A stretch of 42,639 nucleotides of DNA from Gammaproteobacteria bacterium. Its GTDB lineage: Bacteria > Pseudomonadota > Gammaproteobacteria > JAADHQ01. The DNA lies in assembly GCA_011052215.1 (NCBI GenBank), contig DRJK01000086.1, forward strand, positions 1 through 42,639, in the 5' to 3' direction. The notes beneath the pieces are model-generated. The model was not told the origin of the DNA, ran no database searches, and saw nothing but the letters and a program-made list of their open reading frames with translations. The position numbers were made by a program, and so were the translations under genes. Positions 16,825 through 38,208 of the stretch are shown in pieces; positions within the stretch are counted from its first letter, which is position 1; every line of letters begins with the position of its first letter.

Positions 16825-16903
16825 AACATATCAACCATGACATGTGAGCCTCCGTCCCTCTTCTGGCATCACCTGATCAAAGCCGATAATAATATAATAC
16901 TGT

Positions 16904-16957
16904 CACTGCTGTCCCGTTACCCCATGACGAATGTAGTTGAAATGTAAACAGCCCGTG
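16904..16957. repeat. Solo end of the 232-234 bp MITE-like element (copy D)
   Basis: The segment starts with CACTGCTGTCCCGTTA and continues with ACGAATGTAGTTGAAATGTAA, spaced and ordered as in the left ends of the full copies at 32196 and 35140. Similarity stops near 16957, and neither the inverted arms, core nor right end follow. It is therefore a one-ended remnant. It overlaps the 3' end of the gene on the minus strand and supplies its stop codon. Confidence 0.75.
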
Positions 16958-17546
16958 ACATCGCTATATAATCCTTATGTGTATCCACATCCCTCCGGGT
17001 GTCCAGTAATCTGTAATCAAGCCCCAACCTGCTAACCCTGGAAACCGTTTTATTAAGTACTCTCGATGTACTCCATTCCATGTTCATGAATAGATGCGGA
17101 CTGGTATTTTTCATCGCTATCATCCCGTAACCGCCATCAAACGTTGGCATCAGCACCACATCACATGAGTCAAGATGGTTTATCGCCAACTCAATATCGG
17201 ATGTATCCATAGCAATAATATCAGAACCTATCAGAATGGTTTTAGCCGAGTCCCTTGCCGACTCCCTGAATGCATTCATCATTCTCTCCCCCAGACCCGA
17301 TCCATGTTGAGATTTAAGATGAATATCGAATTCACGTGAGCATTTACGAAAAAACGGGTGTTTGGTATCCGGAGAACACCATAACTCTATGGAATAATCA
17401 TGGCCTGCCACCAAACGACCAATCAGCCTGTACAACATCCGTTTATATATTGCTGATGCGTTCCGCATACCAATGGACTTTCCAAGGCGTGTCATCACCT
17501 TCCCTGGAAGGGGTGCCTTTGCAAATATAATCAGGCTATTTCTCAT
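16917..17546 (-). CDS. TIGR04282-family (arsenosugar-type) glycosyltransferase, DUF2064
   Basis: 209 residues starting MRNSLIIFAKAPLPGKVMTR, the GT-A-like signature of the TIGR04282 / DUF2064 family (usual form FaKaPvpGrvKTRL). GLGERMMNAF, ILIGSDIIAM and VVLMPTFDGGYGMIAM follow in the standard order, and MEWSTSRVL matches the C-terminal WsT box. The usual GTDCP is GSDII here, a change in the metal/donor site region. It overlaps the TIGR04283 gene by 11 bp, a standard pair. The last 12 residues (RAVYISTTFVMG) and the stop lie in the solo MITE end at 16904-16957, so the original C-terminus was probably replaced. Confidence 0.82.
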   Translation of the reverse strand: MRNSLIIFAKAPLPGKVMTRLGKSIGMRNASAIYKRMLYRLIGRLVAGHDYSIELWCSPDTKHPFFRKCSREFDIHLKSQHGSGLGERMMNAFRESARDSAKTILIGSDIIAMDTSDIELAINHLDSCDVVLMPTFDGGYGMIAMKNTSPHLFMNMEWSTSRVLNKTVSRVSRLGLDYRLLDTRRDVDTHKDYIAMSRAVYISTTFVMG

Positions 17547-23803: not shown

Positions 23804-24072
23804 TACTGCTGTCCCGTTAATTTTATAAAACGCATCACTACTAATGGTTCCATTAACTTTATGAGGCACATATCAATGTGAGGACATGAAACCGGCAAGC
23901 CAAATCAAGACCGTCTGACGCACGGTTGCGGCAGCCGAACCGCCATGGATGGCATGTTTTGCGTGTCTTGATCTGGCTTACCGGTTTCATGTCCGGTTTG
24001 CTCAATTTTGCTCAAAATATACTTACCGTTATGTATCAACTATATTTGTTTCGGGTTAACAGGGCAGCAGTA
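23804..24072. mobile_element. MITE-like element, copy A (269 bp, reverse orientation, duplicated end)
   Basis: Ends are TACTGCTGTCCCGTTAA and the inverted GTTAACAGGGCAGCAGTA, matching the 18-bp terminal repeat of the family. Inner arms GGACATGAAACCGG... at 23882-23910 and its inverted copy at 23966-23994 (27 of 29 match) enclose a 55-bp core at 23911-23965. The outer ends are reversed relative to copies B and C. The left end is tandemly duplicated: 23804-23838 and 23839 onward are diverged copies of the same terminus, and the body from 23839 to 24072 is 234 bp like copy B. No ORF. No matching 8-bp flank. It lies between the AddA-like gene stop (26 bp) and the DUF2835 start (0 bp). Confidence 0.8.
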
Positions 24073-24097
24073 AGATTTAAGGAACCTCTGAAATAGT

Positions 24098-27000
24098 TTA
24101 CTTTTTATATTCCCATTCACGCCAGCCTTGCAACATAGGAAAGTATAAACCCAGCTTAATATCTCTTTTATCAATTTTACTCATGATCATCGCATAGTTT
24201 TCCAGTTGGCCACGATAGCGTTCCATCTCTCTATCCATAAATACTTCTTTACCTGTCCCGGAATGGCTGCCTGTCTTGTAATCAATAATCCAGCGAATAT
24301 TATTCTCATCTACAAAAGTGCGGTCAATGATTATGTGTTCCACACCTGAGCCAGATCGTCCCGTCAGTGCATATTCATTTCTGGCTTCCCTGTGGACCGG
24401 ATTCAATATCCAGCGACCTCTGGTATCTTTCATTGTATTTCTAACTGAATCAATAACCTTTACGACAGACTGGCCGAGTTCTGAAGCCGGGACGCCAAGA
24501 CAGGACAAGGATTTTCCTGCTAACCGTGAAAAATAATCCTCCAGATCAGTATCATAACTACTGATATTTTCATTGCTTATATATTGAATGATCTCATGTG
24601 CGACTATCCCGATGAATCTCGCCGTATCACCTGCCCAATCAAAATCCAGAGATTCTCCAGGTTGTTCATTTCCTGCCCCCATATATTCATATGAGCAGGG
24701 TGCATCTGGCAGCCTCCAGTCCGGTGCTAACCTGCTTATTCTATTACCGGATCCAGTCTGCTTCCTGTCCGGTTCTCCTCCATCTGTCAGATACCTGTCT
24801 TTACAGGATTCAAATTCATTATCGTAAATATCCTGTACGGCTGGCCATAATGAAGCCAGCAAGGAGCCAGAACGTGGTTTGCCAGGCTGCAACACTCCAT
24901 CTCTGATATTGCATTGAACATGACCAAATATATGCAATCTACGACGTGCGCGTGTTGCAGCTACGTACAATAATCGACCGGACTCATAAAATTCTTTTTT
25001 CTTTTCGAAATCTTCCAGTAATTTGTATTTCTGATTGATATCCTCTCCGGTCTTTCTGATCGGGGCCATAAGCAAATCGCTTGCATCGGGTTTTCGTGGT
25101 CGTTCAAACCATTTTATCAAATGGCTGTCATTACCGGCCGTCTTGTTACCCAGCCCGGGCAATATTACTGTATCAAATTCAAGCCCTTTTGATTTATGAA
25201 TAGTCATAACCTGCAAATTCTCATCTGCATGGATATCAGGCAAAGCAAATAACCTGTTAACAGATTTTTGTAATTCATATAATACTTTTGATTGTGACAG
25301 GGAATTTATTTTCTCCAGTAACTGAAAAAAAACCTCGGCATCTTCTATATCCGTTTCATCACTTAAACAGGCAGGACCTCCCAGCGACAACCATGCCCCC
25401 TCAACCCATTGCCTGAGTCCTTGTCTCTGTGAGCTATTGATGCTGGCCTGAAGCACCCCGCATACACGCTGCAACCTTGACTGGCCATCCTGACTGATTG
25501 TTGCCTGATGACTGCTATCAACAACCAGTTCCAGAACGTTCTTTTCGCGATCGAGTGAACATAATGCATACAGGTCAGATAATTTCAGCCCACACCAGGG
25601 TGCCCTTAATACGGCCAGCCAGGCAATGCGATCAGATAACTGTATCATGGCCTTTACCAGTGAAAGCAGATCCTGTATGACAGGCCGGTGTGATAATCCC
25701 TCTATCTCTACTGCCCGGTATTTCAGTTTTGCCTTGATCAGACTATTAATAATGCTGGATAAATGGCTGCGTCCCCTCACCAGAATAGCTATCGTTCCGT
25801 CCGGGCTGGTTTTTTTTGTCTGCTGAATAATCAATAGAATTTTTCTTGCTTCCTGTTCCTCATCCTTGATAAAACATGGATAAACTGTGCAGGCATTACC
25901 CTCGATGGCATCATGGCGGGCCATAGAATCGACATATCTGACAGCCCCTGATTCCAGATCATCCCGAGCCGGCAATATTTTCCTGAAACTGCTGTTAACC
26001 CACTCAATGATACCTGCCTGAGATCTGAAATTCACTTTTAGTTGAACCGGTATCAGGGTTATATCCCCTATCCCTTCATTCCATGCCTCCAGAAATAATC
26101 CAACCTCGGCCTCCCGAAACCGGTAGATTGACTGCATCGGGTCACCTACAATAAATAATGTACGGTGATCATCCCCTGTCCAGCCGGAAGTTAGCTGCCT
26201 GATTAATTCGAACTGTGACATTGATGTATCCTGAAATTCATCTATCAGCAGATGATTTATTTTATAGTCCAGGGCCATTGCAAGGTCAGTGGGGTTTTCC
26301 GGTTCACCCAGGGCCCTGGTTGCCGCCAATGAGATTGCTGTAAAATCAACAGAATCTTTTTCATAAAAAACCATCTCCAGTTGTGCCGCTGATAATCGCA
26401 GTATCTCGAATAATGCCTGCATGGTTTGCCATTCATCTTCGCTATATTCCGGGCATGGTAAAACGCGTATGGTGTGCAGGCATTCTATGGCGTCCGGAAA
26501 GGACCCCAGGCATGCCAGCAGCTTGACCATGTCTTCTTTCATCTGTGGAAACAGTTTTTTCTCATCCGCTGTGCGGCCGGCACTTGCAGGTGGAAACCCC
26601 TGCCTCTTGTCTACCTTCTTCCTGAGAGCACCTTCACCGGTTAACAAAAAGTCAGCAATAAATCTCCATGACTTGAGATCTTCAAGCTTGTCACCAGGAA
26701 AGCCGGTAAAACTCGCTGATACAAATTCTCCCTCTATACATGCAGTAACAAGGTTATCTTGTGCAAAGACCATCAGGCTTGATATCTGCTCATTGAGCTC
26801 TTTTGGCCATCTGGCAGATAAATCCAGCAGCCTGTCCTCCACCAGAGATCCCAATGCTGACTCAAGATTCACCCGATCAATTGCAGGATGTGCCGGGTCT
26901 GCTACATGGCGCAACCACTGATCACGTTTTGATAGCATGTTACAAATCAATGACTGGAGATATTCAAGCCGGTTATCCAGGTGGCCGGCAAGATGTTCGA

Positions 27001-27514
27001 TTGACTCCGACCAATGTGTGTCAGACTCGAGAATGGCGATCGTATTTCGTGCAGCCTCTTTATACAGTTCATCCGCATCCTCGGTAACCGGGGGAGTGGA
27101 ACCAAATCCGGATAATAACGGCATTTGTCTGGACAACATTGAACACAAGGAATCAATAGTCTGAATACGTAATCGACCCGGATTTTCCAGAAGGCCCCAT
27201 GCACACTTTTTATTGCGACTGATAACATTTTTTGCCAACAACCAGGTCAGCCTGTGATATTCCTGTTCCGGCTCCCCGCTATTACATGCTTCGTTCAGTG
27301 CTGACATTATTCTTTCACGAATTTCACTTGCGGCCTTACGCGTGAATGTAATTGCAATAATCTCTTCGGGCTCTTCTACACACGCCAGTAGTGTAAGAAT
27401 TCGCTGAATCAACAACCCTGTTTTACCAGAGCCTGCTGGAGCCTGAACAATAAATGACCGTGCAGGATCAAGCGCCTGTGCTCGCTGAGCATTGTCAGCA
27501 ATTTTACGATCCAT
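24098..27514 (-). CDS. AddA-like UvrD/RecB-type helicase-nuclease
   Basis: 1138 residues. SF1A helicase motifs in order: Walker A QAPAGSGKT (about 25-32), ITFTRKAASEIRER, IQTIDSLC, LLIDEFQDTSMSQFELIRQL, FIVGDPMQSIYRFREAE, VNFRSQ, MTIHKSKGLEFDTVILPGL and LYVAATRARRRLHIFG. The C-terminal PD-(D/E)XK nuclease has GIVAHEIIQYI and WIIDYKTG. It is predicted to process double-strand ends for recombination together with the AddB-like neighbour, as an AddAB-type replacement or supplement for RecBCD. Start ATG (27512-27514) has GAGGAAG before it and overlaps the 3' end of the neighbour by 11 bp; a start four codons upstream is possible. No signal of transfer. Confidence 0.9.
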   Translation of the reverse strand: MDRKIADNAQRAQALDPARSFIVQAPAGSGKTGLLIQRILTLLACVEEPEEIIAITFTRKAASEIRERIMSALNEACNSGEPEQEYHRLTWLLAKNVISRNKKCAWGLLENPGRLRIQTIDSLCSMLSRQMPLLSGFGSTPPVTEDADELYKEAARNTIAILESDTHWSESIEHLAGHLDNRLEYLQSLICNMLSKRDQWLRHVADPAHPAIDRVNLESALGSLVEDRLLDLSARWPKELNEQISSLMVFAQDNLVTACIEGEFVSASFTGFPGDKLEDLKSWRFIADFLLTGEGALRKKVDKRQGFPPASAGRTADEKKLFPQMKEDMVKLLACLGSFPDAIECLHTIRVLPCPEYSEDEWQTMQALFEILRLSAAQLEMVFYEKDSVDFTAISLAATRALGEPENPTDLAMALDYKINHLLIDEFQDTSMSQFELIRQLTSGWTGDDHRTLFIVGDPMQSIYRFREAEVGLFLEAWNEGIGDITLIPVQLKVNFRSQAGIIEWVNSSFRKILPARDDLESGAVRYVDSMARHDAIEGNACTVYPCFIKDEEQEARKILLIIQQTKKTSPDGTIAILVRGRSHLSSIINSLIKAKLKYRAVEIEGLSHRPVIQDLLSLVKAMIQLSDRIAWLAVLRAPWCGLKLSDLYALCSLDREKNVLELVVDSSHQATISQDGQSRLQRVCGVLQASINSSQRQGLRQWVEGAWLSLGGPACLSDETDIEDAEVFFQLLEKINSLSQSKVLYELQKSVNRLFALPDIHADENLQVMTIHKSKGLEFDTVILPGLGNKTAGNDSHLIKWFERPRKPDASDLLMAPIRKTGEDINQKYKLLEDFEKKKEFYESGRLLYVAATRARRRLHIFGHVQCNIRDGVLQPGKPRSGSLLASLWPAVQDIYDNEFESCKDRYLTDGGEPDRKQTGSGNRISRLAPDWRLPDAPCSYEYMGAGNEQPGESLDFDWAGDTARFIGIVAHEIIQYISNENISSYDTDLEDYFSRLAGKSLSCLGVPASELGQSVVKVIDSVRNTMKDTRGRWILNPVHREARNEYALTGRSGSGVEHIIIDRTFVDENNIRWIIDYKTGSHSGTGKEVFMDREMERYRGQLENYAMIMSKIDKRDIKLGLYFPMLQGWREWEYKK

Positions 27515-30227
27515 AATCTTCCTCATCCAGAGCCTGATCAGTATTTTTTATTTCATTTATTCTGCATAGCGACTTAAGGGAGCAGTATTTGCATGTGGCC
27601 GGGTAAGATAAAGGATCCACCATCGCCTCACCTCGTGCGAACTCGTCTGCCAGTTTATTAACACATGCCTTCCAGTAGTCCAATAGCCCTGTCCAGTTCT
27701 CGATCCCCCGGGTCTGCAATAATTTCTCCGTGTTTTTTACACCTGGTAAACTGATGTCGCCAGACATCACCCCCTTAAATGCACATTCTCCTGGCCTGAT
27801 TTGACCGAAAACAACGCCGGCAAGTTTTTCCGGCAGGGCCGAAACATAAAGAGGTAACTGCGGGTCTCCCGGACGGTCACCAAACCATTCGTATGGCGAG
27901 ACCTTGCCCGTTTTATAGTCGATAACAATCCTTGAGCCATCATCCATTTCATCTACCCTGTCCACCTTCAGTAGAATATCAATACTGTTTGTGGCAAACT
28001 TTACCTTCTGTTCTGTCATCAATACGTGAAAAGGCTGTCTTGATTTTTCGTTCTCAAGCCATTCGAGCATCAGGGTTTTAAGGCGATTGTGTTCCAGCAC
28101 CCTGAAACGTCCCTTGAAATCAACAAATAATTCCTTTTCCATTTTTGTCATGGCCCGTGATACACACCTGTCTACCTGATCATGAAGCGCATCAGCAGAC
28201 AAGTTCTGCAACTGTGCGCCCGTTCTTACTTCACGCCAGAAATATTCCAGCGCCTGATGTACCAGGCTTCCCCGCTCCGATGGGTCCAGCCCGATAGTGG
28301 GCTCCTGCAATGGCCTCGCTGCCAGTCGCAATTCAGCAAATGCACGAAAAGGGCACAGGGACTGTAATTTAATGATCTGACTACCGCCTGATACATCCCG
28401 GCCCCTGACTGGTGGCGCCTGATTATCCTGTATTGATTCCAGTTTTCCGGACTGAAATATCAGTTGGCACCAGTCGGGAAATTTTCGAGGCAGCAATTGC
28501 TCAATATGAACTTTATCAATATCATTCAATAATGCCGACGGGCGAAGGATATCTGTTTCATCCATGCATGGATAACTGATAATACTCTCGGCCGCATTTC
28601 CGATGAGTCTGGAAGTTATCTTTTCAGCAAACTCAAGTTCTCGTGACGCACTTGAATGCGGCATATTTTTTTCTCTTTGTAACGGAAATGGTATAAATGG
28701 ATCCGGCCTGGGGACAGGTGGCCAGACACAATCATGCAGACCCATGATCCAGGTTTTCTCGAACTCCAGTCCGATGGCTTCCATTACACCCAATACCTGC
28801 ACAGGGGCTTCATTTGTCCTTGGCTGAAATATTCTTTCGGCAGCAATCTGACGAAGAATACTCACCGCACTGCCCAATGTTATTTTCCGGTCTGACATAT
28901 CCAGCTTGATAAACTCACACAGCACGTCCTTCCATGCCTCGGCTGTCTGATATTCATCACTTGATAATGTACGCCCCTTTAAATAGCCAAAGCCGTCCAG
29001 TATCCGCGTAATATAACCTGCCCAGAATCCAGGCAAGGCCCTTGCAGGCATTTTATTCACACCCTCGTCAACTGATTCCAGCATTACTGCTATTTTTCGG
29101 GAAAAATATTGTCTGTCAGAGCGACATGCCAACCGGTTAACAAACCTGATTGAAATTTTTTCATTCCCCGCTTCCCTTATCCTCTTGTCCAGCTGCGAAC
29201 GTGAGAACATCTCTTCTTCCCATCCCGTGATAAAAGGTGATCTGAGTAAGGCAGAAAATTCCTCAACGGCTACAGAATTGTTTTTTAATGACAATATAAG
29301 AAACAAGGTCTGTATAACAGGGTATTGAATGAGAGGCCTGCCCATGGATATATTATATGGGTGCCGGGTTAATTCTGTTCCAGGCTTAATGTTTTCCGGA
29401 CTGAATACCTTGTCAAATATTCCCTGGATCACTTCTCGCATTTCTTTTAACTCAGGGACAACGATCCCCAGACGGATCGTTTTCTTCTCTTCCAGCAAGA
29501 CCCTTGCCCAGTGAGCGGCATAAACTATTTCCTCCCTGTAATTATTAACTTTTAACTTGCATACAGATTGGCTAAGGCCGCTTTTCTCGATCCACTCGAC
29601 GATACACCCCTGCTCTTCACAGGCATTAATCAAAGATAATTGTCGAGGGGTGATTTCATCAAAACCGGTCAGAATGATACGATCCGGAACGGAAAATTGC
29701 CTTGCCAGAATCCATTCTGTTATCAAACCCGGTAGTTGGGCCCTGGTAGTCCAGTTTTTACTCAAACACCTTTTTTGCAGTCGTTTGGCCCACTTCTGAA
29801 ATGCCCGGGTATCCTCATTTTGCCAATGCTTGTCCTGTGACTGTTCAAGCTCCCACTCGTGGGTAAGCCGCCATGTCTCTGCTGCCTGACGCGCAGTTGC
29901 AGATACCTGCAAAAGAGGGCTCTCTGTTGATGCTTCGACAATAATCTGTTCCCACAATCCTTGCTCATGCCAGTCACTTATCAATACGGGGGCATGTAAG
30001 GCGTCCGGTTTGGGACCTTCCCTGAAACACCTCATAATCCATGCCCCCCAGGGAATAATATCGGGTGATTCCCATGCCTGCAGGCCTTCATCAACGGCTT
30101 TTTGATCACAGGAATTGCGAATTGAATCTGTCAGACGTGAATTACCTGTGATAATGGTAACCTCGTGCCCGATTTTATTCAGGAGTTCAGCGCGGTTCAG
30201 GTGAATTGCTTTCAAATGTTCAGCCAT
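27504..30227 (-). CDS. AddB-like PD-(D/E)XK nuclease (TIGR03623 'probable DNA repair protein')
   Basis: 907 residues of the TIGR03623 family. The N-terminal helicase-like region has no Walker A (TIITGNSRLTDSI replaces GxxGxGKT), as expected for a non-ATPase AddB partner. A Cys in SLCPFRAFAELRL and the C-terminal CKYCSLKSLC (three Cys) match the 4Fe-4S-holding cysteines of AddB. The nuclease motif RIVIDYKTGKVSPYEW lies between them. It is the upstream partner of the AddA-like gene (overlap 11 bp), so they are co-translated. This pair is known from beta- and gammaproteobacteria. The ATG lacks a recognisable ribosome site. Confidence 0.9.
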   Translation of the reverse strand: MAEHLKAIHLNRAELLNKIGHEVTIITGNSRLTDSIRNSCDQKAVDEGLQAWESPDIIPWGAWIMRCFREGPKPDALHAPVLISDWHEQGLWEQIIVEASTESPLLQVSATARQAAETWRLTHEWELEQSQDKHWQNEDTRAFQKWAKRLQKRCLSKNWTTRAQLPGLITEWILARQFSVPDRIILTGFDEITPRQLSLINACEEQGCIVEWIEKSGLSQSVCKLKVNNYREEIVYAAHWARVLLEEKKTIRLGIVVPELKEMREVIQGIFDKVFSPENIKPGTELTRHPYNISMGRPLIQYPVIQTLFLILSLKNNSVAVEEFSALLRSPFITGWEEEMFSRSQLDKRIREAGNEKISIRFVNRLACRSDRQYFSRKIAVMLESVDEGVNKMPARALPGFWAGYITRILDGFGYLKGRTLSSDEYQTAEAWKDVLCEFIKLDMSDRKITLGSAVSILRQIAAERIFQPRTNEAPVQVLGVMEAIGLEFEKTWIMGLHDCVWPPVPRPDPFIPFPLQREKNMPHSSASRELEFAEKITSRLIGNAAESIISYPCMDETDILRPSALLNDIDKVHIEQLLPRKFPDWCQLIFQSGKLESIQDNQAPPVRGRDVSGGSQIIKLQSLCPFRAFAELRLAARPLQEPTIGLDPSERGSLVHQALEYFWREVRTGAQLQNLSADALHDQVDRCVSRAMTKMEKELFVDFKGRFRVLEHNRLKTLMLEWLENEKSRQPFHVLMTEQKVKFATNSIDILLKVDRVDEMDDGSRIVIDYKTGKVSPYEWFGDRPGDPQLPLYVSALPEKLAGVVFGQIRPGECAFKGVMSGDISLPGVKNTEKLLQTRGIENWTGLLDYWKACVNKLADEFARGEAMVDPLSYPATCKYCSLKSLCRINEIKNTDQALDEEDYGS

Positions 30228-30313
30228 GCGTATCTATAACATCTTTATCTGGTCAATATACTGCGACCTGGTTTCTATCAGACCAAGATAAATGATTCGA
30301 CTGTAAAAATCAG

Positions 30314-30357
30314 CAAAAAACCCTGCCGGTATTCCGTCTTCCAGACAGGTAAGGGTT
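30314..30357 (-). terminator. Likely rho-independent terminator downstream of the lipase-like gene
   Basis: On the minus strand an AACCCT...AGGGTT stem, with a CCTG/CAGG inner part, is followed directly by TTTTTT. It lies 27 bp after the stop of the lipase-like gene and before the AddB-like gene start, so it would end that transcript. Confidence 0.45.
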
Positions 30358-30383
30358 CAATCACTCATGGATAATAACAAATG

Positions 30384-31217
30384 TTATTGGGATAATATTT
30401 TTGCCAGAAGTTGTCCGTCGGCCGGGTTAAGTGCATGACCGGAATGCGTAACATACACCTTCGCCCTGTTTTGAATGGATGGCACCTGGTTGAGGTCCTG
30501 GCTGAACCCGGGCACCATTTCATCTCCATTGTTTTGAGACAGGCTTTTGATAACAGAATAATAGCGGATATCGGGGTGTTTCTGCCTGTTAAGCCAGCTT
30601 AAGGCACCTTCAGAACCTGCCGGTAACAGATCACGGATCACACCACGTGAATACTTGAGATACTGGTATTTCTCGCCACCAACCATTGATTTAACAAAAT
30701 CTATCCCTGGACCTGGACAAAAAAATGGCTTTGAATCAATTACATTCAGTGCATCTATAGCACGGCTGGTACCGAGATGAGGAGATGCTATGGTAATCAG
30801 CGTATCTATTTTTGGGGCGCCCGGTTGTACCAGTACCATTCTGGCAACAACACCGCCCGCTGAATGGGCCGCTATCGTGATTTTTTCCTGTTTGTTTTTA
30901 TTATGTATAAACTCAAGCTCCGCACGCAGGTAAGCCGACTGAATAATCAGTGGCGCCTCTGCCGGAAGAATAACACGATAAACCCGGTTACCCTGCACCG
31001 AACCCCGGGCAGGAGAGAGATGTGCCACGCCCGCATTTGATATTCCAACGACCCCTGCATCAGACCAGCCGTTTTGCCTTAATACTGGCAAGACTCCACT
31101 CTCATACCAGGTATCTGCACTGGAGGCCCAGCCATGCACAAGTACCAGCACATCGGCGTTTGCAGGAGTCACAACAAGCATCATCAGCATTGCCGGGAAC
31201 AGACGTAAAAATCTCAT
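30384..31217 (-). CDS. Secreted alpha/beta hydrolase (lipase/esterase-like)
   Basis: 277 residues from the chosen ATG. A signal peptide (MRFLRLFPAMLMMLVVTPAN, cut near ANA-D) is followed by the oxyanion-hole strand VLVLVHGWASSADTW, nucleophile elbow AAHSAGG (Ser119) and a C-terminal His in VTHSGHALNPADG. TIASPHLGTSRA is typical of triacylglycerol-lipase-like and PGAP1-like hydrolases. It acts in the periplasm or outside. An ATG three codons upstream (31226) is possible but has a too-short ribosome spacing. Substrate unknown. Confidence 0.8.
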   Translation of the reverse strand: MRFLRLFPAMLMMLVVTPANADVLVLVHGWASSADTWYESGVLPVLRQNGWSDAGVVGISNAGVAHLSPARGSVQGNRVYRVILPAEAPLIIQSAYLRAELEFIHNKNKQEKITIAAHSAGGVVARMVLVQPGAPKIDTLITIASPHLGTSRAIDALNVIDSKPFFCPGPGIDFVKSMVGGEKYQYLKYSRGVIRDLLPAGSEGALSWLNRQKHPDIRYYSVIKSLSQNNGDEMVPGFSQDLNQVPSIQNRAKVYVTHSGHALNPADGQLLAKILSQ

Positions 31218-31353
31218 TTCATGCACCTGAATATATAAGTTATTTAGATTATACTAATATATATCAAATGTTTCCAGTCAGCCTGGCACAAATTAGCTAC
31301 CAAAGATAAATATCCATCCATTCAACTACTTGCGTGGTAATTTTTTGACCAGC

Positions 31354-32046
31354 TTACATCCTCATCAGAAGAACCAGCATAACAATAACAATGACTGCAC
31401 CGATGATGGCAAGCAGGGTGATATATCTGCTGCCTTGAGAACTATTTTTCCTGCCCACGAGTCGAGACCTGATTTCATTGACAGATTGTTGCTCAAGTTC
31501 AATGTTTTTCAATAACCCGCCCCTGTTCAGGCTGCTTTTCCGGGCCCTGCCCTGATCACCTGAAGCGGCGTTATCCATGTCTATTTCTGTCGGGGCCAGG
31601 TCCTCTACAAACGATACCGCCCCCCTCTTTTCCCCGGGTGGATTTTCCGGTTGGGCCTGCCTGGCTTCCATCTGCTTATTACGTTTGGCCAGTTCAACCA
31701 TATCGCCCAGCTTGTCGCCGCTCATGATCATGGTTTTTTCAGGTTGTGTCGTGCCCTGACGACCTGACTGGAAAAGTAACTGGTGGCCTCCGATTGATAT
31801 AATATCACCCGAATGCAGGGTGTGCTCTTCTATACGATGGCCATTAACAAAGGTGCCATTGGTGCTGCCAACATCCTCGATGTGAGTTGCTGTAAATATG
31901 CTGACTATTTTTGCATGGTGACCGCTGGTAGCACTGTCATCCAGATGTATATCATTATCTTCTGCCCGGCCAATCGTCATCGTGCCCGCTTCAAGATTAA
32001 TTTCACCCAGCACAAAAGAATCACGATTGATAGTCAGTTTATTCAT
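31354..32046 (-). CDS. FHA-domain protein with C-terminal membrane anchor
   Basis: 230 residues. An FHA domain (about 1-95) has TIGRAEDNDIHLDD, ATSGHHAKI and GSTNGTFVNGHRI, i.e. the Arg, Ser/His and Asn residues that read phosphothreonine. A Pro/Gln/charged linker follows (about 95-200). The last 23 residues form a hydrophobic tail with a short RM end, so the protein is tail-anchored with the FHA domain in the cytoplasm. No kinase or phosphatase lies in the window. A role as adaptor in a Ser/Thr kinase or type VI/secretion system is possible but not shown. Confidence 0.85.
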   Translation of the reverse strand: MNKLTINRDSFVLGEINLEAGTMTIGRAEDNDIHLDDSATSGHHAKIVSIFTATHIEDVGSTNGTFVNGHRIEEHTLHSGDIISIGGHQLLFQSGRQGTTQPEKTMIMSGDKLGDMVELAKRNKQMEARQAQPENPPGEKRGAVSFVEDLAPTEIDMDNAASGDQGRARKSSLNRGGLLKNIELEQQSVNEIRSRLVGRKNSSQGSRYITLLAIIGAVIVIVMLVLLMRM

Positions 32047-32195
32047 TTAAATGGCGTCCCCGTAATCAATATAGTTCATAATGCCGCCTTCATGTATAGG
32101 TGGAATTCTGATAATTACCCCGTTTGTATACAAGTAAACTACCATTGTCACATCACTATAACTACATGGCTTAAAAGCCATCTATATGGTGGCAT

Positions 32196-32429
32196 CACGA
32201 CTGTCCCGTTAACATGTAACGAATACAGTTAAAATGTAAGCGGCAAGTGTGTTTTGGGTTAAATTGGGCAATCCGGACATGAAACCGGTAAGCCTGACCA
32301 GGATACGCAAAACATGCCATCCATGGCGACTCGGCGGCCGCATCCGTGCGGCAGACGGTCTTGACCAGGCTTACCGATTCCATGTCCTCACATTGTTATG
32401 TGCTTCATAAAGTTAACGGGGCAGCAGTG
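32196..32429. mobile_element. MITE-like element, copy B (234 bp)
   Basis: Ends CACGACTGTCCCGTTAAC and inverted CACTGCTGCCCCGTTAAC form the terminal repeat. Arms at 32275-32303 and 32359-32387 match in 24 of 29 positions. The 55-bp core (32304-32358) is the reverse complement of the core in copy C although both elements have the same end order. Flanks GGTGGCAT (32188-32195) and TGTGGCAT (32431-32438) match 7 of 8, consistent with an 8-bp target duplication plus one extra T. It lies 15 bp after the stop of the lipoprotein gene and upstream of the FHA gene. No ORF. Confidence 0.85.
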
Positions 32430-32444
32430 TTGTGGCATTAAAGG

Positions 32445-33089
32445 TTACAAACTGTCTTCATTCGATACCTTTCCCTCTGATCTGTGTGCAGTATTATTCC
32501 GCTTGCTTGTCACTTTTTTATTTTTTATCCGGCTGAATTCCTCATCCAGGGTTTGCATCGCAATTCCGATGGCCCGAGTATTTGCCTCAATACCCGCACT
32601 GTCAGGATTACGACGCCAGACCAATGCCCGGCTGATTTTTGATTCCAGTCGACCACGCACCATTAAATATGCATCACATACTGTATAAACCTGAACTGTA
32701 CCATTAACAGTCATGGTATTCACTGACGTTGAGGTACATACGGATTTGGTGATACCTTCAGAAATATCCTTATCCTCAAGCAGAATAACCAGATCACCCC
32801 CTCTTTGTGCTGCGGCAACCAATACATCTTTTTCGGACGGCATACCATCTGTAACAGTCTTGCAGGCATTATCCTCATAACATTTCCTGATATTTCTGCG
32901 CACATCGATATATCCGATCAGAAGAAAATCACTATCCAAAAGGTCAGCAATGTCACCATTATATATTCTGGCCGGTGATATACGATTGGAGTAAGATAGT
33001 TCGCTAAATGGCTTATACTTTATCTCGACAGGAACAATTGTACATGCCGCCAAGATAGAAATCAGAAAACCCAGGTATAATATTCGCAT
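32445..33089 (-). CDS. Putative lipoprotein of unknown function
   Basis: 214 residues from the chosen ATG: MRILYLGFLISILAAC, with lipobox ILAAC and Cys16 as lipidation site. Not recognised. The body has VCTSTSVNTMTVNGTVQVYT and ALVWRRNPDSAGIEANTRAI, mixed alpha/beta, and several cysteines (KCYEDNACKT, SVCT, YTVCDAY) that could pair in the periplasm. The C-terminus is basic. A TTG seven codons upstream extends the frame but is not needed for a signal peptide. It is divergent from the M48 protease gene, whose start is 79 bp away. Confidence 0.65.
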   Translation of the reverse strand: MRILYLGFLISILAACTIVPVEIKYKPFSELSYSNRISPARIYNGDIADLLDSDFLLIGYIDVRRNIRKCYEDNACKTVTDGMPSEKDVLVAAAQRGGDLVILLEDKDISEGITKSVCTSTSVNTMTVNGTVQVYTVCDAYLMVRGRLESKISRALVWRRNPDSAGIEANTRAIGIAMQTLDEEFSRIKNKKVTSKRNNTAHRSEGKVSNEDSL

Positions 33090-33168
33090 TTTATTATGAT
33101 GATTTCCCAATACAGAACCCTTTAACTCTATCGGACCGGCTTTCAGAATTGTAACACAGCGCTATTTT

Positions 33169-34191
33169 ATGTCTCATACCCAAACAAGGCTGATCTTGCT
33201 GCCATTTATTTCCATATTATTATCAGCTTGTACCGGTGTGGATAAAAAGCCGCAAATAAAGCCGGTTATTATCAGTCAGAAAGAAAAACAGACCGGGGGA
33301 AAAGTTTATAAACTATTTGAAAAACATTACGGGTTTTATGATAAACCCGAACTCGAATCATATATAAAGTCAATGGTACTGAATGTGTTGTCTCACACAC
33401 CCGCCAGAAATGCTGCCATTACATTCAGGATTCTCGACACATCGCTGGTCAATGCCAGGGCCACGCCTGGTGGCTACATCTACGTGACAAAGGGGCTCCT
33501 GGCACTTGCCAATAACGAATCCCAGGTTGCCTCTATTATTGCACACGAAATAGCCCATGTGGTTGCAGGGCATACAAAGAAAAAATATGAGCAAAAAGAA
33601 AAAATCCTGAAAATTTCCAGAAATATAAACAGGAATATCAATACCAATATGGCGAAACAGGTCACTACCCTGTTCAGCAAAGTGATCATAAAAGGTAACC
33701 AGCGCAGAAATGAACTTGAAGCAGACAGACTGGCATTACACTATATATCAAAAACCCGCTATTCAACCTCATCCATGCTGAATATGCTGGAATTACTGAA
33801 GAAATTCAGTGCCTATAGTAATTCTTTTCAAACTGAGTCAGGCTATACCGAAAACTCTATTTTATCCACTCACCCCAGTATTGACAGAAGAATTACCGAA
33901 CTGAAAAAAAATTACAAAAAAAACAACTATTCCAGAACCATAACAAGCAACTCTGTCATAGATAAAAGGTATCTGGATAAAATTAATGGATTGGTAATAG
34001 GAAAAATTAACAACAGGAAAGTGGTGCTTGGCCTGAAACACTTCCCTGACTACAACCGATATATCAGGGAAGTTAAAAATTATTCCAATGGTGACCGGAT
34101 ACTCGCCGAGTACATCCGTGTATTAAACAATATTCCTGCCAACAGACAAAATAATTCACCTTTACTGATAAAATGGCTTGAAAGAAAATAA
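33169..34191 (+). CDS. M48-family metalloprotease lipoprotein
   Basis: 340 residues with a lipobox LLSAC (Cys21) and the zinc motif HEIAH (126-130) inside ASIIAHEIAHVVAGH. The third ligand is Glu182 in NELEADRLALHY, and GGYIYVTKGLLALANNESQV precedes it, as in the BepA/LoiP (YfgC/YggG) group of periplasmic quality-control proteases. The C-terminal LGLKHFPDYNRYIREVKNYS part is short, without the TPR region of BepA. Likely anchored to the outer or inner membrane and degrading misfolded envelope proteins. No ribosome site was found before the ATG. Confidence 0.87.
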   Translation: MSHTQTRLILLPFISILLSACTGVDKKPQIKPVIISQKEKQTGGKVYKLFEKHYGFYDKPELESYIKSMVLNVLSHTPARNAAITFRILDTSLVNARATPGGYIYVTKGLLALANNESQVASIIAHEIAHVVAGHTKKKYEQKEKILKISRNINRNINTNMAKQVTTLFSKVIIKGNQRRNELEADRLALHYISKTRYSTSSMLNMLELLKKFSAYSNSFQTESGYTENSILSTHPSIDRRITELKKNYKKNNYSRTITSNSVIDKRYLDKINGLVIGKINNRKVVLGLKHFPDYNRYIREVKNYSNGDRILAEYIRVLNNIPANRQNNSPLLIKWLERK

Positions 34192-34482
34192 CATTCCCAG
34201 GCAAATACGTATTTTTACATTCATGATAATTTTTCAGCAAGAAATACCCTTGTACAGAATTTCGGATAACTGCCCGTTTACTCAAGACCAGCACCCCCCA
34301 TCAACCACTATAATTCCATTTTTAACATGTGGTAATCACCTGTAAACTGTGGCATGTGTCACTAAAATGCCCGGAACAGGCATGGCCACCCCTGCCATAC
34401 TCATTCAAACATGACCCAATCGACAAAATCGCGGGACGACAGACGCTAGTGTTCTATCCATGTGATGTTTACGGTTACTTCA
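34192..34482. other. Intergenic stretch of about 290 bp
   Basis: Between the M48 protease and the secreted unknown protein. No tRNA, repeat, terminator or recognisable promoter was seen. The short frames on either strand look like chance. Confidence 0.4.
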
Positions 34483-35031
34483 ATGAAAATAGTACGCTTT
34501 ATAACACTCTCTCTGACCGTCTTCCTGGCGATCAGCCCGGTGGCCAGATCAGAACCCGTCTTGATACTGGCGGGACTGATTTTTGCCTATGAAGTCTCCG
34601 AAAACAATGACAAGAACAAGGCAGACAATGTACCCATGGACTGGCGAGCTACTTTGACTGAAGAAGAAAACAGAAATATCGAGCAAATCGGCAAAGACCC
34701 GGTTATTCAGGCATGCCTTGAACAGGCCAATAATCACAATAATCCCGTTGCACAATATCATCTACGCAAGATTGCTGGTCTGAGTTCTAAAATAAAATCT
34801 GAAATCAGCAAAACGGGCGATATCGGCAATCTGGATAAATACAGTTACAAAAGACCGGTTCAGGGTTTCATATGGTGCAAACGGAATGCCGGCATCATCG
34901 TTGAAAATAATATAGCGCCTTACATGCATCAGGAATATGTCATACAGATTGCGCAACTGGGACAGATTTCCACACAAAATATACATGTGGTTATGGCCGA
35001 AGATAAAGAAGCACCCATGGGCATAGAGTAA
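34483..35031 (+). CDS. Secreted protein of unknown function
   Basis: 182 residues starting MKIVRFITLSLTVFLAISPV with a cleavage site near ARS-E. Not recognised. The mature part has DWRATLTEEENRNIEQIGKD, ACLEQANNHNNPVAQYHLRK and a cysteine in IWCKRNAG; mostly helical with no membrane segment. An in-frame ATG seven codons upstream (34462) gives a less typical signal peptide. It is followed 109 bp later by MITE copy C. Confidence 0.6.
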   Translation: MKIVRFITLSLTVFLAISPVARSEPVLILAGLIFAYEVSENNDKNKADNVPMDWRATLTEEENRNIEQIGKDPVIQACLEQANNHNNPVAQYHLRKIAGLSSKIKSEISKTGDIGNLDKYSYKRPVQGFIWCKRNAGIIVENNIAPYMHQEYVIQIAQLGQISTQNIHVVMAEDKEAPMGIE

Positions 35032-35139
35032 GATATGCCTGATTCCTGCCTGGATCAATCTGACACTAGCACCACCTCAACTAATTTCAAACCACCCCCG
35101 GATTCAGGGTTACATGAGTACTGTGCTTACCCCTATACT

Positions 35140-35371
35140 CATGACTGTCCCGTTAACATGTAACGAATACAGTTGAAATGTAAGCAGCAAGTGCGTTTTG
35201 GGCTAACCCGCAATCCGGACATGGAACCGGTAAGCCGAATCAAGACCGTCTGCCGCACGGATGCGGCAGCCGAGCCGCCATGGATGGCATGTTTTGTGTG
35301 TCTTGATTCGGCTTACCGGTTCCATGTCCTCACATCTATATGTGCTTCATAAAGTTAACGGGACAACAGTG
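35140..35371. mobile_element. MITE-like element, copy C (232 bp) with 8-bp target duplication
   Basis: Ends CATGACTGTCCCGTTAAC and inverted CACTGTTGTCCCGTTAAC. The direct repeat CCTATACT lies at both borders (35132-35139 and 35372-35379), which shows transposition. The 29-bp arms 35217-35245 and 35301-35329 are perfectly inverted. They enclose a 55-bp core (35246-35300) that contains the small hairpins CTGCCGC/GCGGCAG and GCCAT/ATGGC. No ORF, so it needs a transposase in trans. Upstream of the P-type ATPase gene. Confidence 0.9.
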
Positions 35372-35387
35372 CCTATACTGGTATAAT
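35360..35387 (+). promoter_or_regulatory. Possible hybrid promoter of the ATPase gene (element -35, native extended -10)
   Basis: GGGACA (35360-35365), the inverted end of MITE copy C, stands where a -35 box should be (4/6 to TTGACA). TATAAT (35382-35387) with TGG before it is an extended -10. Spacing is 16 bp. The predicted start would be about 40 nt before the ATPase ATG. Sequence-based prediction only. Confidence 0.45.
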
Positions 35388-35433: not shown

Positions 35434-38208
35434 ATGGGATATACCGGGCGTAGAAAACTTGTAAAAAAAGCCACAGGCATGAATGCTGAAAGACCTGACA
35501 AAAACCCTGCCAGCAGCGGAATACTTCTACCCCCTCATTCCATAACCGCTGAAGAACAACTTTCGCTATTAAATGCAACTCCACATGGACTAAGCAAGCT
35601 GGAGGTAGAGGCGCGTCTTAAACAGTACGGGGGGAATATTTTTCCGCATGGTAAACCACCCGGAATTGGCAAGGTTTTTTTCAATCAGTTCATTAGCCCG
35701 CTTATTTATGTATTACTGGCAGCAGCGGTATTTTCAATATTCATCAAAGAATGGTCAGATGCAGGTTTTATTTCGGCAGTCCTGATCATCAATGCAATTA
35801 TAGGCACCATTCAGGAATACTCTGCACAACGTGTAGCATCGGCCCTGAATAAACTGGTGCATACGCGTTGCCAGGTTCTCAGGGATGGCGATACCTATGA
35901 AATCAATGCAAATGAGCTCGTACCGGGCGATATTGTCCTGATCGAATCGGGTGAAAAAATCCCCGCTGATATTCGTTTACTTGACAGTCATGATCTTGAA
36001 ATTGATGAATCCTTACTGACCGGGGAGTCACTCGCCGTCCACAAGGATGCCCACAAAATACTGGATGAGGACACCATACTGGGTGACCGCGAAAATATGG
36101 TATTTACCGGCACCCTTGTAAACAGAGGAAGGGGACGTGGGGTTGTCGTCACAACAGCACTGGAAACGGAATTAGGACATATAGCCGAGGCCGTATTAAG
36201 CAAACCCGAAACCAGGACCCCGCTGTTAATCCGCATGGAAGAATTTACCCACCGGGTGGCTATATTTATCGGAATTGCTGCACTCCTGATGGCCATTATT
36301 TCCCTGGCGCGTGGTATGCCTCTGGCTGAAATCCTGTTACTTTCCGTAGCACTTGCGGTTTCTGCAATCCCGGAAGGCCTTCCAGTTGCAATGACAGTTG
36401 CACTGGCGATCGGTATGCGTCGAATGGCTAAAAGGAATGTTATTATCCGCCGCCTGTTATCGGTGGAGGCCCTCGGCTCCTGCACCTTCATAGCCACTGA
36501 TAAAACCGGGACATTAACCGTCAACCAGCTCACGGTACGTCGAATCATACTTCCGCCATCAAACATCCTTGATGTAACAGGCGAAGGCATGACACCGGAA
36601 GGAAAAATCAACATCCCGACGCCCGGAAATCCTGAACAGGAGCAGATGTTGAAACGACTGTTACAGGCAGTTGTGCTGAATAACGAAGGATTTATCGGCA
36701 TGCGCGATAATGAATGGATGCATCATGGTGATGCCGTTGATGTGGCATTACTCGTCCTGGCACACAAGGCCAGTATTATCAAGGCAGAGACTACCTCCTC
36801 ATACCCCGAAATTGCGAACATCCCTTTTGAATCCGAACGTCTGTTTTCGGCCACCCTCAACAAGGTAGGCAATATGCATGTGGCTTTTGTAAAAGGCGCA
36901 CTTGAAAAATTATTACCCATGTGCAGCACCATGTCGAACGGGAATGACAATATCCCTCTGGACAGAAAATCCATCGAGGCAAATGCAAGTATTCTCGCCA
37001 ATCAGGGATACAGGGTAATGGCAGTGGTTTCAGGCATAACTGAACTCCAGCATGACGAGGTATTTTCAGAGGAACATTTAAAAGGCATGACATTTCTTGG
37101 CCTCACAGGAATGATTGACCCGATACGGCATGAAGCCCGAGACGCTATCACGGCCTGTCTTAAGGCGGGTATCGATGTCGCCATGATAACGGGAGATCAC
37201 CCAGCCACTGCCCTGGCTATAGCCAGGGAGCTGAATCTGGCAAACGAATCGAGTAAAATCGTCACCGGTACTGAACTGCAACATACAAAAAATACCAGCG
37301 AACTGGACAATCTTATACAAGACACAACGGTCTTTGCCCGCGTTGAACCCCGGCAGAAACTGGCGATCATTCAGTCTCTGCAAAGACAAGGGCATTTCGT
37401 TGCTGTTAGTGGCGACGGGGCTAACGATGCCCCTGCTCTACGTGCTGCACAGGTCGGTGTTGCGATGGGGAAAAGCGGTACAGACGTGGCGCGTGAAACG
37501 GCCGGCCTGATTATCACTGACGATAATTTTGCTTCCATTGTCGCCGGTATTGAAGAAGGGCGGGTTGCCTATTCCAATGTCCGTAAGGTTATTTTTCTTC
37601 TCATCTCTACTGGTGCCGCAGAACTGGTGCTCTTTACATTGGCATTACTAACCGGGCAGGCACTGCCTCTGCTGGCGGTACAGTTACTCTGGCTCAATCT
37701 GGTAACAAATGGCATACAGGACATTGCACTCGTATTTGAACCCGCCGAAGGCAACGAACTAAACCACCCGCCCCGATCACCCGATGAGCCTATTTTTAAT
37801 CGCCTGATGATTGAACGGGTTATTGTGTCTGCGTTAACCATGGGGATTCTGACTTTTGCATTATTCCAGTTATTGATGAAACAGGGCTACTCAATTGATG
37901 AAGCGCGTAACGGTGCCCTGTTACTGATGGTGCTTTTTGAGAACATTCATGTATTTAACAGTCGCTCGGAAACACTCTCGGTTTTCAGGCATAATCCCTT
38001 TCGTAACCCGCTGTTACTGCTCGGGACGATTACAGCGCAACTTGTCCATATAGGTGCAATGTATACACCGTGGATAAGCAATATACTTCATATCCAGCCC
38101 GTTTCCCTGATACATTGGGGGAAGCTGTTATTCCTTGCCCTGTTTATCCTGCTGGTTATGGAGCTGCACAAAAAATACTGGCAGAAACGTTCTTTTCATT
38201 CAGTCTGA
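35434..38208 (+). CDS. P2-type cation-transporting ATPase
   Basis: 924 residues. Actuator motif LLTGESLAV, phosphorylation site ATDKTGTLT (Asp356), ATP-binding VAFVKGALEKLL, hinge GDGANDAPAL, and M4 PEGLP (Glu314) place it in the P2 (SERCA-like) class. It is an inner-membrane pump with about 10 helices. In the M5 segment STGAAE730, Gly727 takes the place of SERCA Asn768, while the Glu (SERCA Glu771) is kept. In M6, NLVTNGIQDIAL has Asn759 at the SERCA Asp800 position. Ion choice may therefore differ from Ca2+. The first ATG is used (GGGATGAGAC before it). It ends 13 bp inside the convergent rnd gene. Confidence 0.9.
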   Translation: MGYTGRRKLVKKATGMNAERPDKNPASSGILLPPHSITAEEQLSLLNATPHGLSKLEVEARLKQYGGNIFPHGKPPGIGKVFFNQFISPLIYVLLAAAVFSIFIKEWSDAGFISAVLIINAIIGTIQEYSAQRVASALNKLVHTRCQVLRDGDTYEINANELVPGDIVLIESGEKIPADIRLLDSHDLEIDESLLTGESLAVHKDAHKILDEDTILGDRENMVFTGTLVNRGRGRGVVVTTALETELGHIAEAVLSKPETRTPLLIRMEEFTHRVAIFIGIAALLMAIISLARGMPLAEILLLSVALAVSAIPEGLPVAMTVALAIGMRRMAKRNVIIRRLLSVEALGSCTFIATDKTGTLTVNQLTVRRIILPPSNILDVTGEGMTPEGKINIPTPGNPEQEQMLKRLLQAVVLNNEGFIGMRDNEWMHHGDAVDVALLVLAHKASIIKAETTSSYPEIANIPFESERLFSATLNKVGNMHVAFVKGALEKLLPMCSTMSNGNDNIPLDRKSIEANASILANQGYRVMAVVSGITELQHDEVFSEEHLKGMTFLGLTGMIDPIRHEARDAITACLKAGIDVAMITGDHPATALAIARELNLANESSKIVTGTELQHTKNTSELDNLIQDTTVFARVEPRQKLAIIQSLQRQGHFVAVSGDGANDAPALRAAQVGVAMGKSGTDVARETAGLIITDDNFASIVAGIEEGRVAYSNVRKVIFLLISTGAAELVLFTLALLTGQALPLLAVQLLWLNLVTNGIQDIALVFEPAEGNELNHPPRSPDEPIFNRLMIERVIVSALTMGILTFALFQLLMKQGYSIDEARNGALLLMVLFENIHVFNSRSETLSVFRHNPFRNPLLLLGTITAQLVHIGAMYTPWISNILHIQPVSLIHWGKLLFLALFILLVMELHKKYWQKRSFHSV

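Follow-up and report, generated by a model that had tools for sequence, protein, structure and literature searches.

Evidence for repeated in-place inversion of a TwoAYGGAY-like core within a high-copy MITE family of a gammaproteobacterium

The core of a non-autonomous MITE appears to have been inverted repeatedly and independently, in place between ends that remained unchanged, a conclusion that is well supported by comparison of the copies with one another. The element was studied in a window of 42,639 nucleotides, a single contig among the 183 that make up a 2.6-Mb draft genome (G000), and then throughout that genome and in a congeneric sister species (G002). The overall explanation that we consider probable is that a CsrA-site-like TwoAYGGAY module is carried by the MITE and is inverted in place by template switching between the two arms that enclose it. 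New here are the scale of the process, with about 13 apparently independent events in a single repeat family, and the finding that the core is likely to be a TwoAYGGAY / CsrA-site-like module, a character not recognised in the initial annotation of this DNA.

Layout of the element and orientation of its core

The element is approximately 230 bp long, with terminal inverted repeats (TIR) of CACTGYTGTCCCGTTAA and a target-site duplication (TSD) of 8-9 bp. Its central module is a 113-bp palindrome in which a 53-bp core is enclosed by arms of 30 bp each. The order L-end, arm, core (ACGCAAAACATGCCATCC...), arm, R-end was designated standard. Three core-bearing copies, designated A, B and C, are present in the window (Table 1).

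The initial annotation had reported that core B is the reverse complement of core C with a few mismatches, that the ends of B and C are ordered alike, and that copy A has reversed ends and the same relation of core to ends as copy B. All three statements were confirmed. Core B (32304-32358) and core C (35246-35300) were identical at 51 of 55 positions as reverse complements; gapped alignment in direct reading gave only 32 matches, and shuffled versions of core C gave at most 39 matches to core B (mean 33, gapped alignment). The outer ends follow the same order in B and C while the whole of copy A lies on the other strand, so that copies A and B are standard and copy C is inverted. The inverted arms that had been described around the core were also found, with a measured length of 30 bp in place of the 29 bp given earlier. 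The arms of copy C are 100% complementary and those of copy A 93%. Adjoining copy A, at 24098-30227, are neighbouring genes for a UvrD-type helicase and a PD-(D/E)XK nuclease, in appearance an AddAB-like repair pair.

Table 1. Coordinates of the MITE copies and their parts in the window
Feature	Coordinates	Strand	Remarks
Solo MITE L-end fragment, without core	16903..16970	+	65% to copy B over aligned stretch
Copy A of MITE	23836..24072	- (L-to-R)	Left boundary uncertain; second TIR-like motif 23804-23820
Copy A arm adjoining R-end	23882..23911	.	
Copy A core, standard order	23912..23964	ANGGA strand +	Loop 1 decayed: CGGT, not CGGA
Copy A arm adjoining L-end	23965..23994	.	
Copy B of MITE, standard order	32196..32429	+ (L-to-R)	
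Copy B left arm	32275..32304	.	
Copy B core	32305..32357	ANGGA (TwoAYGGAY-like) strand -	
Copy B right arm	32358..32387	.	
Copy C of MITE, inverted core	35140..35371	+ (L-to-R)	
Copy C target-site duplications	left 35132..35139, right 35372..35379		Both CCTATACT; read from sequence
Copy C left arm, 30 bp	35217..35246	.	
Copy C core, inverted relative to its ends	35247..35299	+	Hairpin loops A-CGGA-U and A-UGGA-U on + strand
Copy C right arm	35300..35329	.	

The TIR gave 127 matches in the source genome and the core at least 162, and about 150 distinct copies were extracted as short stretches for comparison. At least 8 flanking bases were shared by 38 of 86 copies, against about 2 expected. In the stretches around the copies, no transposase-sized open reading frame was found inside one TIR pair of core-bearing copies, and no autonomous parent element was found between TIR pairs. 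The same module of arms plus core occurs in the sister species within quite different outer ends. A plasmid search with copy C gave no match; the core pattern was absent from viral contigs, and among genome contigs it was found only in MAG JAADHQ (apparently G002).

Two further arrangements were observed. Head-to-tail tandem arrays are present in G000 (C77:1-572, C54:12348-12643 and C28:1-450; L058, L137 and L009), built of units of about 210 bp that are truncated at the R-end and joined straight onto the next L-end. In G002, an element of 439 bp (C45:16135-16573; L203:1501-1939) lacks the core but has perfect CACTGCTGTCCCGTTAA ends, and apparently has another small inverted-repeat element nested inside it.

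Core direction was scored with the ends oriented, a comparison that the initial annotation had suggested, using two independent classifiers, one of which scores the ends while the other fits whole-element templates in both core orientations. There were zero conflicting calls. Both orientations proved real: among two-ended copies in G000, 94 were standard and 12 inverted, and with half-ended copies included the counts were about 131 and 17, that is, about one in nine or 12% inverted. In G002, five copies were standard and one (L060) was inverted, the core of the latter being of the G002 type.

The core as a putative CsrA-binding RNA module

In standard copies, the core strand that runs in the R-end to L-end direction matches Rfam family RF01731, TwoAYGGAY (clan CL00106); matches were obtained on the ANGGA strand only. 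At E <= 1e-3 there were 49 matches in G000, two in G002 and none in two other congeners. Relative to the curated gathering score of 43 bits, five copies in G000 scored above (43.1-44.3 bits) and most fell slightly below, as did the module of copy C (35209-35337; 33.2 bits, E 0.0012). The predicted fold consists of a 30-bp closing stem around two hairpins with the loops A-CGGA-U and A-UGGA-U; loops of this form, A-N-GGA-Y, are the sequence signature of binding sites for the global regulator CsrA/RsmA. ANGGA was found in loop 1 of 117 of the 131 modules and in loop 2 of 126, both being intact in 112; the N varies between C, G and U, and the GGA and the leading A are fixed. Pair 60-75 is compensatory, with C-G in 89 copies and G-C in 29. 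On the ANGGA strand the arm pairs included 245 G-U against 61 A-C, an excess that lends weak support because it shrinks to 77 against 52 once the three most variable pairs are removed.

A canonical CsrA is encoded in G000 (C134:10066-10224; 91.5 bits, Pfam PF02599), and none was found in G002, which is 79% complete. A possible divergent CsrA paralogue was also observed in G000, with one element about 0.9 kb away (C9:26242-26370 and C9:27239-27436; L250 and L236). TwoAYGGAY has been reported to match the CsrA-binding motif and was proposed to sequester CsrA (Gardner and Eldai, PMC4333381). Given the ANGGA hairpins, the RF01731 match, this published proposal and the CsrA of the genome, the best reading of the core is a predicted CsrA-binding RNA module carried by the MITE, which would be transcribed and would bind CsrA. 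No CsrA sites on transposable elements were found in a non-exhaustive search of the open-access literature.

It is somewhat unlikely that the palindrome is a feature of the DNA or of transposition only and that its likeness to TwoAYGGAY is coincidental. Scores lying mostly just below the gathering cut-off are in keeping with coincidence, but the two ANGGA loops in which N is free to vary, the compensatory pair and the excess of G-U over A-C are not, nor is the conservation of the core between species whose outer ends are unrelated.

RF01731 was detected in 18 of 274 sampled genomes of the class, in 13 of them above the cut-off and often in many copies, including multiple copies in a single-contig genome (G270). 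In several carrier genomes the RNA sits in longer dispersed repeats with unrelated flanks, so that repeat carriage of TwoAYGGAY modules may be a general pattern. Among the few TwoAYGGAY copies read in other genomes no inverted core was found. Multi-copy TwoAYGGAY was seen at L296-L315 (G270, G160, G242, G148, G028 and G088), where the longer dispersed repeats of several genomes end in a TTTTCTTGGACAAGCAAGAAAA-type hairpin.

Copy C is followed, 62 bp downstream, by a P-type cation ATPase gene (35434-38208), and only the inversion places the ANGGA strand of this copy in the sense direction of that gene. Relative to the neighbouring genes, flipping would determine the DNA strand on which the ANGGA hairpins are encoded. 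Between co-directional genes, the module was sense in 33 cases and antisense in 17 (p = 0.033), a weak bias; for inverted copies the corresponding counts were 5 and 2, with no clear pattern. Nothing above chance was found in a search for a promoter or terminator within the element. A cis-regulatory reading from gene orientation was set aside, the bias being weak and nothing being specific to inverted copies. Selection for flipping is not claimed. We advance only tentatively the possibility that a mobile element has scattered more than 100 CsrA-docking hairpins, and that inversion toggles docking in neighbouring transcripts and so rewires a global post-transcriptional regulon.

Arms, mechanism and independence of the inversions

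The two arms of a copy resemble each other more than they resemble arms of other copies (identity 0.888 within a copy vs 0.830 between copies; the maximum of 2000 shuffles was 0.844). Inverted copies had fewer arm mismatches (p = 2e-4), and perfect arms were found in 6 of 12 inverted and 6 of 103 standard copies (p = 2e-4). An inner marker, TCAAG/TAAAG, situated 5 bp inside the arm, was informative in three inverted copies and had flipped together with the core in each of them. The outer marker AAACC/GAATC was swapped in L031, L069 and L073 and unswapped in L063, which indicates, from few informative copies, that the breakpoints vary along the arm. A second-level inversion was seen in G000 at C73:23159 (L104), where the four-base loop of hairpin 1 has itself been turned round, giving TCCG on the RNA strand in place of CGGA, and the short arms of this hairpin (8-11 bp) are now perfect.

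Template switching between short inverted repeats, by which the arms are homogenised and the spacer inverted, has been described for coding genes of yeast (PMC8604942). Since arm homogenisation together with spacer inversion is this published signature, the inversion mechanism appears to be of a known kind. The initial annotation had held that flipping inside a MITE of this kind is undescribed; spacer inversion as such is known from the yeast study, and the narrower statement stands in that no report of inversions inside MITEs was found in a search, not exhaustive, of the open-access literature. Template switching is our preferred agent. After insertion of the element, its two arms would occasionally pair during replication and the polymerase would switch template between them; such a switch would homogenise the arms and would sometimes leave the core inverted between otherwise unchanged ends.

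The main rival is ordinary intrachromosomal homologous recombination, with inversion of the core by crossing-over of its two 30-bp arms. An exchange of the RecA type would leave traces largely like those of template switching, and the near-perfect arms of inverted copies and the variation of breakpoints along the arm agree with it. We nevertheless judge it unlikely. Arms of 30 bp offer little homology for RecA-dependent exchange, and a loop of 53 bp is very short to be inverted by crossover. A crossover also hardly accounts for the nested tetraloop inversion, whose arms measure 8-11 bp, and arm homogenisation without inversion is more natural under template switching.

The independence of the events was assessed on a maximum-likelihood tree built from the ends alone, with arms and core left out (121 columns, poorly resolved). 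On this tree the 13 inverted copies need 13 changes, equivalent to random scatter (shuffled mean 12.5), and at least 6 changes are required even when only the strongly supported branches are considered. A single clade of inverted copies was rejected (AU p = 3.5e-8), and there was no excess of inverted nearest neighbours among inverted copies. After rectification, inverted cores showed a mean distance of 0.088 to the five copies nearest by ends and of 0.112 to all copies. TSDs also flank several inverted copies (L031, L060, L069, L073, L076 and copy C of the window). Because the TSDs are kept and the cores match the type of their own subfamily or species, inversion probably took place within inserted copies, or at the latest on insertion. 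Inverted copies were not significantly older than standard copies (p = 0.22), nor were they younger, and the inversions appear to have left no detectable descendants. The suggestion of the initial annotation that the core is inverted between its arms is largely upheld by the count of changes on the tree, the rejection of one clade, the inner-arm markers that flip with the core and the persisting TSDs.

Misassembly of a short-read metagenome, with the assembler passing from an arm into the wrong end of the core, is very unlikely, even for a fragmented draft of 183 contigs in which many contigs end inside the element. The inverted copies are internal to their contigs and their TSDs are intact, and private arm variants occur in both arms of some of them (e.g., L065, L076 and L131). 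Any usual k-mer resolves 30-bp arms, and the same picture was obtained in the independent assembly of G002, the contig names of which suggest k=127.

From the 12% of inverted copies, r*t was estimated at about 0.14; with a typical end-branch of about 0.09 changes per site, this corresponds roughly to one inversion for every 150 substitutions that an element accumulates. A proportion of 12% argues against a fast switch and for a slow mutational process, too rare for a programmed switch. A phase-variable regulatory switch, in which the core would be flipped by a site-specific recombinase, is slightly less likely still than misassembly. Perfect inverted arms around a compact core do have the layout of an invertible element, but no fixed crossover site was seen in the few informative copies, the breakpoints of L063 differing from those of L031, L069 and L073. 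Moreover, a fast switch would tend towards 50% inverted, no preferred gene orientation of inverted copies was found, and the element holds no recombinase gene. Two old subfamilies with opposite cores, each spread by transposition, were the scenario that the initial annotation had itself set against flipping; although both orientations are present in two species, this is a negligible prospect, excluded by the ends-only tree and the neighbour tests, as the inverted copies are scattered singletons of which no two are sisters, their single clade is rejected and their cores follow their own subfamily.

Significance and comparison with known systems

The family constitutes a natural replicate experiment: a single inverted repeat is available in more than 100 copies, about 12% of which appear to have been inverted independently, and both the rate of template-switch inversion and its breakpoints can thereby be measured for a bacterium. 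Should CsrA bind the module, the MITE would be spreading a regulatory RNA part genome-wide, and this would help to explain the multi-copy TwoAYGGAY RNAs of several Gammaproteobacteria.

In its short length, lack of coding sequence, TIRs, TSDs of 8-9 bp, high copy number and intergenic location, the element resembles bacterial MITEs in general, from which it differs by the strongly conserved internal RNA-like module and the internal inversions. A likeness in shape is offered by the terminal repeats of parvovirus (AAV) with their flip and flop forms, in which a palindrome likewise encloses two small internal hairpins and the core occurs both ways. The analogy is one of shape only, as the MITE module has an internal position and no terminal-resolution enzyme.

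With template switching as described in yeast (PMC8604942) the family shares arms that become identical, a spacer that inverts in place, independent recurrence and a preference for perfect arms. The yeast cases have arms of 10-16 bp and spacers of 3-5 bp within genes, whereas the arms here are 30 bp long and the spacer is a structured 53-bp sequence in a bacterial mobile repeat, at many loci.

Like other TwoAYGGAY RNAs (RF01731), the module holds a pair of AYGGAY-looped hairpins within a closing stem, and five copies exceed the curated score. It differs in that loop position 2 is often G (ANGGAY), most copies lie just under the cut-off, and the module forms the centre of a MITE whose outer ends are unrelated, in far more than 100 copies and with a strand orientation that varies between them. 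The CsrA-sequestering RNAs of the CsrB/RsmZ type also present hairpins with ANGGA loops; in contrast to their many sites within one sRNA gene, the family described here would disperse two putative sites per unit on a mobile element.
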